Source of the DNA: Capnocytophaga periodontitidis
GTDB lineage: Bacteria > Bacteroidota > Bacteroidia > Flavobacteriales > Flavobacteriaceae
Direction: 5' to 3'
DNA length: 64,000 bases
NCBI RefSeq assembly: GCF_016126015.1
Contig: NZ_JAEFDB010000002.1
Span: forward strand, 62,001-126,000
The notes beneath the pieces are model-generated. The model saw nothing but the letters and a program-made list of their open reading frames with translations, had not been told where the DNA came from and ran no database searches. Of this stretch, positions 6,058-9,351 are shown piece after piece. How positions within the stretch are numbered: position 1 is the first letter of the stretch; each line of letters begins with the position of its first letter. The position numbers and the translations under genes are program-made.

Positions 6058-7422
6058 CTACTGCCTGATTTGCGATAATGCAAATAGCGGACATACCCTC
6101 ACCGTGCGCTCTGCTCCTTCTTCAGTATCGGTATAGGTAAACGTTCCAAAGTTCTCTAATGAGGCTCTTATGGCATTCTTTAGCTTCTTTTCGCGCATAA
6201 ACTGCCACAAACTCTTCATTCCTCCTTGTGTGCCTGCTTTTACTTCTAAAGGCAATACTGCCGACTCGTAGGGTATGAGATAATCTACCTCTGCCTGTGC
6301 ATTTTTGGCTCTGCGCACCCAGTAAAACAACTCGTGTCGCATATTGGGGGTGCGGTATCGCAATAGTTCAAGCCCCGCAATCATCTCAGTAAGCGCCCCT
6401 TTGTTTACTAAGTCGGTAGGGTTTTGGGTGAGTATTTGGGTTGTAAGCTCTGTGATGTCGCCTGTCATATCAAGCCAACGGAGTAGCAACCCACTGTCGA
6501 GCAGTAGCATTTTCCTATAAGTAGGGTCGGCTTCACTTCCTAACGGAAGCCCGTTGGCATCGGTGTGCGTTACAGGGGTGATTATACCCGCTAAAATAAG
6601 CAATTCCAACGCTTTTTTTACGTCATTAGTATGGTATCCCCCTCCTCCTACTTGCGAGTATACAAACTTACTGCCTATTTGTAAGGCGACGCTTTGCAGG
6701 GTAAGTCTAAGCAAGGTAGGGTCTACTCTCTTTCGGTATTTAGGAAAATCGTCCTGATAGGTGAGTACAATATCGTCTTGCACCTCTTGGCAAGCCAAAT
6801 AATCGCGTGTGGCTACCCATTTGGCTACTACCTCTGGCATCCCTCCTACCAACATATAAGAGCGAAATAACCCTACTAACTTCTCGTATAAAGGTAATGG
6901 TAAAGGCGCTTCGGCAGTAGCACTATTGCGCGCTTCCAATAGCAAAGTTTCGCCACAAGCCCTTAAAAACTCATCAAAAGTCATTGGGTAGACAAACATA
7001 GAGTGGATACGCCCCACTCCAAAGGTTGGCAATGTTTCGAGAGCAAACTCTAAGAGAGAACCTGCGGCTATCACGTGCAAATCGGGCATATCTTCTTTAA
7101 AAAAACGCAATGCCATAATCGCCTCGCCTGCCGCTTGTATCTCGTCTATAAAAAGCAGTGTTTGCCCAGCGACAATAGGCTTGCCCACCATAGCCGAAAG
7201 CTGAGGCACTATACGCTTTACATCGAGGTCTCCCTGAAAGAGTTGTATAAATGAAGGTTGCTTTTCTAAGTTTATTTCTACGAAATTTTCAAATTGTTTG
7301 CCCAACTCTCTTACTGCTGTCGATTTACCCACCTGACGGGCACCCCTTAACAACAAAGGTTTGCGAGCAGGGCGTAAAGCCCATTCTTTTAGATAGCTAT
7401 CTATTAATCTTGGGTAATACAT
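6058..7422 (-). CDS. AAA-family ATPase with DUF4143 domain
   Basis: This 454-residue protein has an N-terminal P-loop (GARQVGKS, residues 27-34), Walker B (LLFIDEIQ, Asp93-Glu94) and a sensor-like AAGSLLEF, followed by a helical region and a C-terminal nuclease-like DUF4143 domain (RRAKNAQAEVDYLI...LPLEVKAG). This is a large family of predicted ATPases of uncertain function, common in Bacteroidetes accessory regions and abundant in paralogues. Its GC content and codon use are closer to the core genes than to the AT-rich immunity genes beside it. A TATCTTTG -7 element lies on the minus strand at 7456-7463, just upstream of the start. Confidence 0.9.
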   Translation of the reverse strand: MYYPRLIDSYLKEWALRPARKPLLLRGARQVGKSTAVRELGKQFENFVEINLEKQPSFIQLFQGDLDVKRIVPQLSAMVGKPIVAGQTLLFIDEIQAAGEAIMALRFFKEDMPDLHVIAAGSLLEFALETLPTFGVGRIHSMFVYPMTFDEFLRACGETLLLEARNSATAEAPLPLPLYEKLVGLFRSYMLVGGMPEVVAKWVATRDYLACQEVQDDIVLTYQDDFPKYRKRVDPTLLRLTLQSVALQIGSKFVYSQVGGGGYHTNDVKKALELLILAGIITPVTHTDANGLPLGSEADPTYRKMLLLDSGLLLRWLDMTGDITELTTQILTQNPTDLVNKGALTEMIAGLELLRYRTPNMRHELFYWVRRAKNAQAEVDYLIPYESAVLPLEVKAGTQGGMKSLWQFMREKKLKNAIRASLENFGTFTYTDTEEGAERTVRVCPLFALSQIRQ

Positions 7423-7637: not shown

Positions 7638-8015
7638 ATGAAATACATTTTTATCGTAGAAAAAACCAATACAGGTTATTCAGCTTATGCTGAAAATGCT
7701 AATGTAGCGACTGTAGGCGATACTTATGCCGAGCTAAAAGAAAATATGCTCGAAGCTCTAAATATGCTTTTAGAGGAGGAACAAAAACCTTTAGCTAAAG
7801 AAAGCGATATAGAAATAAAGTTTGATTTAGCACAATTCTTAGAGTATTATAATGGTATTAATATCCTTTCGTTAAGCCAAAAGATAGGTGTAAGTAATAG
7901 CCTTATCTCTCAGTACAAAACTCGTAAAAAATATCCCTCAGAGAAACAAGCTCAAAAAATATTTCAAGGCATAAAATCATACGGTATGGAGTTAGCCTCT
8001 ATTGATTTAGTATAG
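7638..8015 (+). CDS. Orphan HicB-like regulator with HTH domain
   Basis: The 125-residue protein has an N-terminal HicB-type fold (MKYIFIVEKTNTGYSAYAEN...TVGDTYAELKENMLEALNM, residues 1-45) and a C-terminal helix-turn-helix (ILSLSQKIGVSNSLISQYKT, residues 75-95, then RKKYPSEKQAQKI). HicB proteins neutralise the HicA mRNA-interferase and repress their own operon. No HicA-like small basic dsRBD-type gene lies next to it, so it is an orphan antitoxin or stand-alone repressor. It has its own promoter and a strong terminator, and 33-bp repeats flank it on both sides. Confidence 0.8.
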   Translation: MKYIFIVEKTNTGYSAYAENANVATVGDTYAELKENMLEALNMLLEEEQKPLAKESDIEIKFDLAQFLEYYNGINILSLSQKIGVSNSLISQYKTRKKYPSEKQAQKIFQGIKSYGMELASIDLV

Positions 8016-8037
8016 ACTTTATTATTTTTAACACGCT

Positions 8038-8080
8038 GCAAGAGCACACTCGCTAAAAAGTGAGCTCTTGCTTGTTTTTT
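8038..8080 (+). terminator. Rho-independent terminator of the HicB-like gene
   Basis: GCAAGAGC at 8038-8045 and the following CACTCGCT pair with AGTGAGCTCTTGC ending at 8071, followed by TTGTTTTTT. It lies 22 bp after the stop. Confidence 0.8.
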
Positions 8081-8110
8081 GCAAAAATCCAAAGAAATAA
8101 TAAAAAGAAA

Positions 8111-8143
8111 AATTCCCTTGCAAAAAGTGATTGCAAGGGAATT
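8111..8143 (-). terminator. Rho-independent terminator of the small peptide gene
   Basis: AATTCCCTTGCAA and TTGCAAGGGAATT form a 13-bp perfect stem. Read on the minus strand it is followed by TTTTTCTTTTT, and it starts 7 bp after the stop of the 56-residue gene. Confidence 0.8.
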
Positions 8144-8149
8144 AAAAGA

Positions 8150-8320
8150 TTATTTGCTTAGTCCTTTAAAAATTATTCCAGCAATTAATCCTAAGATACT
8201 GGCTCCAGTAGCTGTTACAATCGTCTTGTCTTTAAGAGTTTCTTTGGCTATTTTTTTACCCATTTCAATTCCTTTCTTAAGACCTTGTTGTTCTCCAGCT
8301 CCAAATGCTTTATTACCCAT
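8150..8320 (-). CDS. 56-residue glycine-rich amphipathic/hydrophobic peptide
   Basis: A 57-codon frame runs on the minus strand from ATG 8318-8320 to TAA 8150-8152. The product starts MGNKAFGAGEQQGLKKG, has a Lys-rich amphipathic middle (MGKKIAKETLKDK) and a C-terminal hydrophobic, Gly-rich segment (ATGASILGLIAGIIFKGLSK) that could insert into a membrane. The family is not recognised. It has its own promoter (8636-8666), a leader of about 310 nt and a strong terminator, which argues that it is a real gene. A bacteriocin-like peptide, a small toxin or a membrane regulator are all possible. The longer plus-strand frame here is its shadow. Confidence 0.6.
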   Translation of the reverse strand: MGNKAFGAGEQQGLKKGIEMGKKIAKETLKDKTIVTATGASILGLIAGIIFKGLSK

Positions 8321-8405
8321 AATGTAAAAAGTTTTAAGTTAATACCTACTGTCTGTTGCAGGCTTTTCGGTTTCCGCCTTTGCATTGAGTAAAGACAATA
8401 AAAAA

Positions 8406-8555
8406 ACGTGAAACATTCCTTTTTACTTAATTTTCAGGAGCCCGACCAAAGGCTAAAAGCACAAGTAAAAGGAATGCCCACGTTAAACCGTAGGCATTTC
8501 CATCTTTACATTCCTGTGCTTTTTTAAAAAAATTGGTCGTTTTCTGAAAATCAGG
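8406..8555 (-). promoter_or_regulatory. Candidate attenuator/riboswitch-like leader
   Basis: Read on the minus strand, segment A (GGAAATGCCTACG, about 8500-8488) pairs with segment B (CGTGGGCATTCC, about 8481-8470), inside an outer rod in which CGACCAA pairs with TTGGTCG and TTTTCAG pairs with CTGAAAA. Segment B, extended to ACGTGGGCATTCCTTTTACT, is also complementary to a downstream segment C (AAGTAAAAAGGAATG...CACGT, about 8428-8406), which is followed immediately by TTTTTTT. A:B and B:C are mutually exclusive; B:C plus the T tract looks like an intrinsic terminator and A:B like an antiterminator. No known riboswitch consensus was recognised. The rest of 8321-8715 holds only the promoter and AT-rich leader. 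Confidence 0.55.
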
Positions 8556-8635
8556 AAATAGCAAAGCGAAACGCTATATGTCTTTTTATATTATATCTTT
8601 TTTAAATGCTGTTTAAATATTGTTTAAATTTGGGA

Positions 8636-8666
8636 CAAAAGTAACACTTTTTTTCTAATAAACAAA
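8636..8666 (-). promoter_or_regulatory. Promoter of the structured leader and small peptide gene
   Basis: On the minus strand TTTG (8666-8663), a 19-bp spacer and TACTTTTG (8643-8636) match the Bacteroidetes consensus. Transcription would begin near 8630 and run through the structured leader into the 56-residue gene. Confidence 0.65.
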
Positions 8667-8715
8667 AACTGAAATATACTTTTTTGAAAAACTTTTACTC
8701 AACACGGGGAGGTCT

Positions 8716-9351
8716 TCAAATATTCATATTCTTTTTCCCTCTTCCTATTTCTAGCAATCGCTCAAGAGTAGTTTGCAGTACCTTATTTAGTTTCAGCTGC
8801 CACTGATATTGATAATCTACAACAGGGTCATTCTCATCATCTAAATTTCTCCCTACTGTTTGTACATAGATAATACCATTTTCAACGTGATAATCTCCCA
8901 TTGTATAACACTTCGTTGGTTCTGGGAAAAGTTCTGTAAATTCATTCCCGTATTCATTATAGTCTATCAATATCCTTCTATTGAAATCACCAATACTGAA
9001 AGCTAATTCTTTTTTTTCTAAAGCAATTTCAAAATCCTCATCAATAAAACTCTCTATTATCTTAGTTTCATTCTTTAGTTTCTGAACTAACAGAGCTAAA
9101 TCTATAGCTCCTCCCATAGTGGAGCAGTCCATTTTATATAAGATTTTTCCTACTTGATAGGAGAAAATATCACCTTCTATGGTTGGATTTTCAATAGGCA
9201 CTAAAGTTTCATCGCTATAAGGGGTTTTGTCGAGCATTACCTCCCCTTTTAGTAAACGAAAAACCTCTTCGCCAAAATTGATGTCTAACCAACCCGCTGA
9301 TGGGGTATATTTTAATTGTATATTAGTTGCTTTTTTCTTTACAGTTCTCAT
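8716..9351 (-). CDS. Hypothetical protein, immunity-type
   Basis: The 211-residue frame is taken from ATG 9349-9351 (MRTVKKKATNIQLKYTP); an in-frame ATG 48 bp upstream would overlap the preceding gene. There is no signal peptide or membrane segment. The protein is acidic, with Trp/Tyr-rich strands (SAGWLDINFG, VDYQYQWQLKLNKVLQ) and a Lys-rich C-terminus. The family is not recognised. It follows the 133-residue gene at 9359 by 7 bp, so the two are probably one transcript. Small acidic cytoplasmic proteins in such arrays are usually immunity proteins of polymorphic toxins; that is inference here. Confidence 0.65.
   Translation of the reverse strand: MRTVKKKATNIQLKYTPSAGWLDINFGEEVFRLLKGEVMLDKTPYSDETLVPIENPTIEGDIFSYQVGKILYKMDCSTMGGAIDLALLVQKLKNETKIIESFIDEDFEIALEKKELAFSIGDFNRRILIDYNEYGNEFTELFPEPTKCYTMGDYHVENGIIYVQTVGRNLDDENDPVVDYQYQWQLKLNKVLQTTLERLLEIGRGKKNMNI

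Follow-up and report, generated by a model that had tools for sequence, protein, structure and literature searches.

A leader RNA with two conserved alternative pairings upstream of a small peptide gene in Capnocytophaga periodontitidis, probably a cis-acting transcription attenuator

On the minus strand of the window (i.e., the whole stretch of 64,000 nucleotides analysed here), a promoter is followed by a strongly structured leader and then by the frame of a 56-residue peptide. This locus raises two questions: is the leader a switch, and does it belong to the peptide? A first-pass annotation had answered both positively: the leader would contain mutually exclusive antiterminator and terminator helices within a second long-range stem, and a small membrane peptide would be under its control. 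All the parts listed in it (promoter, complementarity of segments A, B and C, seven T, small frame and terminators) were found in the DNA itself at their minus-strand positions. From 5' to 3' the leader segments are D1, D2, P1, P2, P3, E, A, B, P3', P5 (with P2' in its loop), P1', C and the U tract.

The locus and its parts

The features are given below with window coordinates and, after the semicolon, the basis of each.

8636..8666, minus strand: promoter, TTTG (8666-8663), 19 nt and TACTTTTG (8643-8636); sequence
8565..8575, minus strand: small hairpin D1, AGCG-UUU-CGCU; 92.2% of cells paired in the genus copies, with little variation
8552..8565, minus strand: D2, 5' strand of helix D2:E; swap tests, column counts being weaker
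8544..8553, minus strand: 5' strand of P1 (TTTTCAG/CTGAAAA), rod; two-sided change and swap tests
8533..8544, minus strand: GAAAA and 5' strand of P2, CGACCAA (8539-8533; partner TTGGTCG); rod covariation
8515..8524, minus strand: 5' strand of P3, rod; two-sided change and swap tests
8504..8516, minus strand: E, 3' strand of helix D2:E; swap tests
8489..8507, minus strand: A, 5' strand of P4 (antiterminator arm), with GGAAATGCCTACG at 8501-8489; covariation and swap tests
8463..8482, minus strand: B, the shared strand, with partner A (rod) or C (terminator); CGTGGGCATTCC at 8482-8471, pairing extending to 8463
8455..8463, minus strand: 3' strand of P3; rod covariation
8439..8454, minus strand: P5 hairpin, AGCC-UUUGGUC-GGGCU, with the 3' strand of P2 (8449-8443) in its loop; covariation score
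8428..8437, minus strand: 3' strand of P1; rod covariation
8407..8428, minus strand: C, AAGTAAAAAGGAATGTTTCACG, 3' strand of the terminator; covariation and swap tests
8400..8406, minus strand: U tract, seven T; sequence
8343..8380, minus strand: DUF805b-like RNA element (RF02914); 31.4 bits, E 7.3e-7
8150..8320, minus strand: 56-aa ORF with a hydrophobic C-terminus; ORF list
8111..8143, minus strand: terminator-like hairpin 3' of the 56-aa gene, with a T-rich tail; sequence

The promoter matches the Bacteroidetes consensus TTTG / TAnnTTTG, as given in an extract of PMC7366714. The motif TAnnTTTG lies at most 150 nt upstream of 28 of the 41 leader copies found in the genus (mononucleotide-shuffled sequences: mean 3.1, maximum 10), and the full pair TTTG-N18-22-TAnnTTTG upstream of 9 of them (shuffled: 0.07).

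The stretch 8632-8394 is much more stable than its shuffled counterparts, with a minimum free energy (MFE) of -67.9 kcal/mol (z -6.5; 0/200 shuffles as low).

Conservation of the two pairing states

In one state, B is paired with A and the leader forms a rod of helices P1, P2, P3 and P4 (i.e., A:B). The first covariance model was built from four copies, with only these rod helices declared as pairs. Since the genus and family alignments were fitted to the rod, the following counts are favoured: (i) in 39 distinct genus copies, 95.3% of the cells are paired (slid controls: 35-45%) and two-sided change is observed in 37 of the 45 pairs (shuffled: 23.5); (ii) in 79 distinct family copies, 93.4% are paired, with 976 two-sided cells vs. 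275 in shuffles and a score of 0.725 vs. 0.197. The stem described as enclosing the switch is present as P1 and P2; it is better read as the base of the antiterminator rod than as a second switch element.

In the other state, B is paired with C, and the helix has 20 pairs with small bulges in the window copy. B:C was never declared as pairs to any model, and it was counted on the rod-fitted genus alignment. On this alignment, 87.6% of its cells are paired (slid: 40-59%; shuffled: 82.0%), two-sided cells amount to 51 vs. 15.1 in shuffles and the score is 0.273 vs. 0.179. Next to P3 the helix weakens, with 79.4% of the cells paired. U-rich ends were found for 149 of the 161 copies, the other 12 being exceptions, compared with 245 of 751 control windows.

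Both helices were also compared by a swap test, i.e., the duplex energy of a strand with its own partner vs. that with partners taken from copies less than 70% identical; this 70% rule removes relatedness partly, while the shuffles used above ignore it. Two sets were used: the 79 distinct family copies, and 79 further copies found by model R3 and outside every model build. Each line below gives native/swapped energies for the family set, then for the further set.

B:C: -22.8/-14.4; -17.9/-12.5
A:B: -19.4/-14.0; -17.7/-13.9
P1: -10.7/-3.1; -11.8/-4.1
P2: -10.5/-4.0; -10.2/-4.5
P3: -10.0/-2.9; -10.7/-3.7
D2:E: -12.4/-6.6; -11.8/-7.5
A:C (control): -7.8/-8.1; -9.4/-8.8
D2:B (control): -5.1/-5.2; -5.5/-5.0
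E:C (control): -5.0/-5.7; -5.9/-6.0

The three controls are near flat. The native duplex is more stable than the mean swap in 77 (family) and 78 (further) of 79 copies for B:C, 74 and 70 for A:B, and 79 and 78 for D2:E; for the controls A:C, D2:B and E:C, the values are 34, 28 and 29 of 79 in the family set and 50, 51 and 35 of 79 in the further set. It ranks among the best 5% of swaps, in the same order of sets, in 34 and 38 copies for B:C, 33 and 19 for A:B, 41 and 27 for D2:E, 25 and 37 for P2, 71 and 71 for P1, and 72 and 70 for P3. The 5'-3' pairing D:C, present in the MFE of the window copy, was dropped (native/swapped -9.6/-9.1 in the family set, -8.5/-8.8 in the further set).

A:B and B:C are both conserved by compensatory change. 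Since both persist in copies changed on the two strands, the claim that they are mutually exclusive antiterminator and terminator arrangements is strongly supported.

Three smaller elements complete this description. P5 covaries, with a score of 0.621 vs. 0.197 in shuffles and 109 two-sided cells vs. 40; its counts of pairs and pair types are no higher than in shuffles. P5 presumably cannot coexist with the full P2 of the rod. GAAA and UUU(C), which flank the 5' strand of P2, can close a further hairpin, P6 (at least 4 pairs), in 143 of 161 copies, and in 847 of 3220 control places. The column counts for D2:E are weak, a score about as high being obtained for D1 plus D2:E at slide +2; this helix would belong to the terminator state, to which it is assigned by exclusion. 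In addition, a second hairpin 3' of the U tract, with a loop complementary to C, was noticed at L114, L116, L119, L137, L164 and L188; the support for it is partial, as 27 of 161 copies have a native pairing that ranks among the best 5% of swaps.

Proposed mechanism and alternative explanations

When the window transcript 8630-8400 is folded with the rod forced, an energy of -63.7 kcal/mol is obtained, vs. -51.9 kcal/mol with the terminator forced, a gap which is overstated because the rod-forced fold contains the unsupported D:C pairing. Judged by MFE, the partner of B is A in 138 of the 161 copies and C in the other 23. In these folding models readthrough looks like the thermodynamic default, and since B:A is favoured in most copies, termination would need kinetics or a trigger.

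On this evidence, the leader probably represents a new RNA class, which would attenuate transcription in cis by switching between two states. The transcript would start near 8630. In state 1, the long rod would form, B being paired to A (P4) atop P3, P2 and P1; C would be left free, no terminator would arise, and the polymerase would continue through the DUF805b-like element into the 56-aa gene. In state 2, B:C would form the terminator directly 5' of the U tract, with the P5 hairpin in its loop and, putatively, D2:E. B:C would then stop transcription, the two states would interconvert, and a trigger, whether a small molecule, a protein or a physical signal, would shift the balance between them. 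Since each strand of P2 can be part of a small hairpin of its own (P5 or P6), a kissing contact between the two hairpin loops may start the rod and then open into it.

Attenuator features are indeed found here: (i) exclusive helices with a shared strand are conserved; (ii) a terminator stem with a U tract precedes a co-oriented gene. At 153 of 161 loci, the first ORF of 100 aa or more after the element lies on the same strand; at 6 it is on the opposite strand, and at 2 there is none. The element itself is inside a frame of at least 100 aa in 3 of 161. This bears on a different explanation, namely a stand-alone trans-acting small RNA with its own terminator, the downstream gene being incidental. 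The promoter motif and the U tract would suit such an RNA. However, the next ORF is co-oriented at 153/161 loci, while the previous ORF is co-oriented at 32 of the 54 A8 loci having one (orientation was taken from A8 loci, the A12 stretches being too short upstream). Moreover, a plain small RNA would not need a strand B common to terminator and rod. This explanation is thus unlikely, and the leader probably acts in cis.

A second explanation is attenuation mediated by the ribosome through a leader peptide. ATG frames of at least 8 codons start in 27 of 39 genus copies, 58 of 79 family copies and 57 of 79 further copies, and one start column, inside segment C, is common to 17 of the 39 genus copies. 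Nevertheless, the commonest start column is found in only 18 of 79 family copies and 8 of 79 further copies, and the frame differs between copies because B contains either four or five U in a row. No widely conserved leader frame being found across the family, the leader was not classed among ribosome-mediated attenuators, and a role of this kind is very improbable.

Two further explanations were considered. The leader may be a riboswitch sensing a metabolite or an ion, in which the rod, whose internal loops are strongly conserved, would be the aptamer and B:C the expression platform; this is possible, though somewhat doubtful. Conserved unpaired stretches mixed with covarying helices, several copies per genome heading different genes, and a platform with a shared strand all speak for it. 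On the contrary, the downstream genes have no theme pointing to a ligand, and no Rfam riboswitch model matches at gathering score, nor at E 0.5 in 20 family loci. Alternatively, a conserved RNA-binding or antitermination protein may hold one of the two states, an explanation that deserves attention without being the expected one. NusG-paralogue and LicT-type systems are models for such a leader, and their typical clients are accessory genes, a point counted in its favour. The small conserved hairpins D1, P5 and P6 could be the binding sites.

Known RNA families and distribution

The leader would be a new class working like an attenuator. No match overlapping it was found at the gathering scores of Rfam 15, a library that includes Flavo-1, whether in the window, in 20 genus loci or in 20 further loci, and no match overlapped a leader in 20 family loci at E <=0.5. 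At E <=5, the region 8000-8760 gives overlaps under the gathering score, the best being BSnc120 (E 0.31; 18.5 of 114 bits) and Phe_leader (E 0.55; 21.4 of 55 bits), both taken as chance. The one convincing match at this loose threshold is the DUF805b-like element, located between the U tract and the start codon; at gathering scores, no Rfam family matches anywhere in the window. No description of this leader RNA is present among the titles and abstract openings listed in searches of open-licence literature, which does not prove novelty in print.

As in attenuator-type riboswitch leaders, one strand (here B) pairs either upstream or with C beside the U tract, and here both pairings covary. The leader differs from them in two respects: no known class model matches at gathering score, and what competes with the terminator is a long rod, each P2 strand of which can be part of a small hairpin. 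T-box leaders also work by exchange between antiterminator and terminator, and the present leader has a UGGU stretch in the P5 loop. However, this stretch changes in diverged copies, and the T-box model has no match at 8000-8760 (E <=5) or in the 20 family loci (E <=0.5).

The DUF805b family (RF02914), cis-regulatory by its Rfam type, reportedly comes from a 2017 survey. Of the 41 genus copies of the leader, 19, including that of the window, are followed by DUF805b at a distance of at most 100 nt; it differs from the leader as a separate 35-nt element. The segment 8380-8343 scores 31.4 bits for a gathering score of 35.6; it is a probable, weak member, since DUF805b exceeds the gathering score 3' of the leader in 10 of the 20 genus loci scanned. 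Among the 66 genus matches listed, 47 adjoin none of the 41 leaders; one of these 47, on G001:C20, adjoins a partial BLAST match. DUF805b was therefore rejected as a part of the switch, as it also stands alone. By eye, the tail of the DUF805b-like element has an 8-base complementarity to A.

Flavo-1 (RF01705) and 6S-Flavo (RF01685), RNAs of the Bacteroidetes marked as not cis-regulatory in an extract of PMC2864571, share the phylum of the leader; neither was matched in any Rfam scan of leader loci.

The genome of the window contains seven copies of the leader by BLAST, including that of the window, and nine matches to the final model. In Capnocytophaga, the first model finds 41 sense copies and four antisense shadows, with copies in 14 of 20 genomes. 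Since the rod is highly symmetric, antisense strands match models R1-R3 weakly, and their removal was required before counting. Copies were found in 37 of 397 family genomes (model R2), and in 76 of 296 order genomes and 44 of 296 phylum genomes (model R3), in samples which overlap and whose stricter filters lose weak matches. A DNA pattern search of named genomes, the pattern picking one sequence form of P2, gave 107 stretches: a sense R3 match is present in 74 (54/80 and 20/27) and absent in 33. The 74 positive stretches are 39 Bacteroidota and 35 contigs of metagenome-assembled genomes (MAG), the latter labelled Kiritimatiellae (14), Verrucomicrobia (6), Lentisphaerae (4), Bacillota (1) and uncultured bacterium (10). 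At one locus (L243:1046-1128, plus strand) a match to the rteR small RNA, an RNA of conjugative elements, was noticed (79.6 bits).

A phage or plasmid origin was considered and rejected: the window copy has no blastn match in phage and plasmid records, and the pattern has three viral matches, none of which matches model R3.

A leader with so much compensatory change, with several copies per genome in some genera and unmatched in Rfam 15, is unusual. Its broad distribution suggests a common signal, and the covariance models built here make the class searchable.

Downstream genes and the 56-residue peptide

The view of a unit centred on a membrane peptide is not supported, since the genes headed by the leader are numerous and unrelated, and the peptide stands alone in the genomes searched. 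No Pfam family passes the cut-off for the 56-aa ORF (best E 0.21), and no relative of the peptide was found outside its own genome in 20 genus or 120 family genomes. The conserved entity is the leader rather than the peptide. As for regulated control, attenuation in cis is supported by the U tract and the promoter motif, and by the orientation of the gene that follows; the interpretation as a whole is partly supported.

In Bacteroidota, the downstream genes have no single Pfam theme or pathway among the 148 of 161 loci with a usable ORF. Response regulators (7/73) and TonB plug domains (7/73) were found in one set; in the other, with 25 of 54 families listed, BNR repeats (5), TonB plug (3), collagen repeats (3) and DUF805 (2) were found among 75. 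By eye, many of the downstream frames are lipoprotein-like. Two type III methyltransferases were found as well, and this type accounts for 4 of 9 Bacteroidota ORFs picked from named loci, to which L165 is added. A defence theme in Bacteroidota was rejected, PADLOC matches being few. Twelve loci (L198, L203, L205, L206, L208, L209, L212, L213, L215, L216, L219 and L220) precede, by eye, apparent paralogues of one small protein, whose frame begins about 60-330 nt past the element.

In the MAG loci, two ORFs were considered downstream of the leader, namely the first non-overlapping ones of 90 aa or more whose start is no further than 1,200 nt away. A DNA methyltransferase gene follows the leader in 21 of 35, a raw count and not one of independent events, since the pattern fixes one form of P2, some loci share a genome and the RNAs are similar. 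Among the first 25 loci, 16 have such a gene, as follows.

EcoRI-type methyltransferase: L254, L257, L259, L267, L319
D12 methyltransferase: L263, L273, L290
Eco57I methyltransferase: L251, L291, L318
N6 methyltransferase: L253, L270, L302
N6/N4 methyltransferase: L269, L314

DpnII endonucleases and GmrSD domains were also found in these 25, two of each, with one of the GmrSD domains at L264. The last ten loci, with one ORF per locus, agree with them (methyltransferase in 5 of 10): L339 and L342 are of EcoRI type, L332 and L338 of N6/N4 type and L351 of N6 type (22.2 bits vs. 20.4). L343 has a TdeIII restriction endonuclease, while the single ORF at each of L327, L334, L336 and L344 is neither a methyltransferase nor a restriction endonuclease. 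L307 has just 146 nt of room for a downstream ORF. The presence of five methylase families suggests a repeated association with the leader. To our knowledge, how methylation is timed before restriction in cells acquiring a restriction-modification system is an open question. The MAG clients are mostly methyltransferases of restriction-modification kinds, and an RNA switch ahead of a methylase is directly testable.

A wider reading, held tentatively and at slightly less than an even chance, would make the leader an ancient, undescribed two-state RNA class of Bacteroidota and of bacteria of the Kiritimatiellae/Verrucomicrobia type. It would gate mobile and accessory genes by attenuation, i.e., restriction-modification in the latter, and surface proteins, TonB receptors, response regulators, sigma factors and some methyltransferases in Bacteroidota, in response to one common host signal and with a kissing-hairpin start.

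Two neighbours of the leader in the window may be mentioned. A 125-aa ORF at 7638-8015 (plus strand) has a weak HTH_3 similarity, under the cut-off, and by eye the look of a HicB-type antitoxin. An AAA_14/DUF4143 ATPase is encoded at 6058-7422 (minus strand), and an AAA_14/DUF4143 gene is also found about 600 nt past the MAG leader L282.
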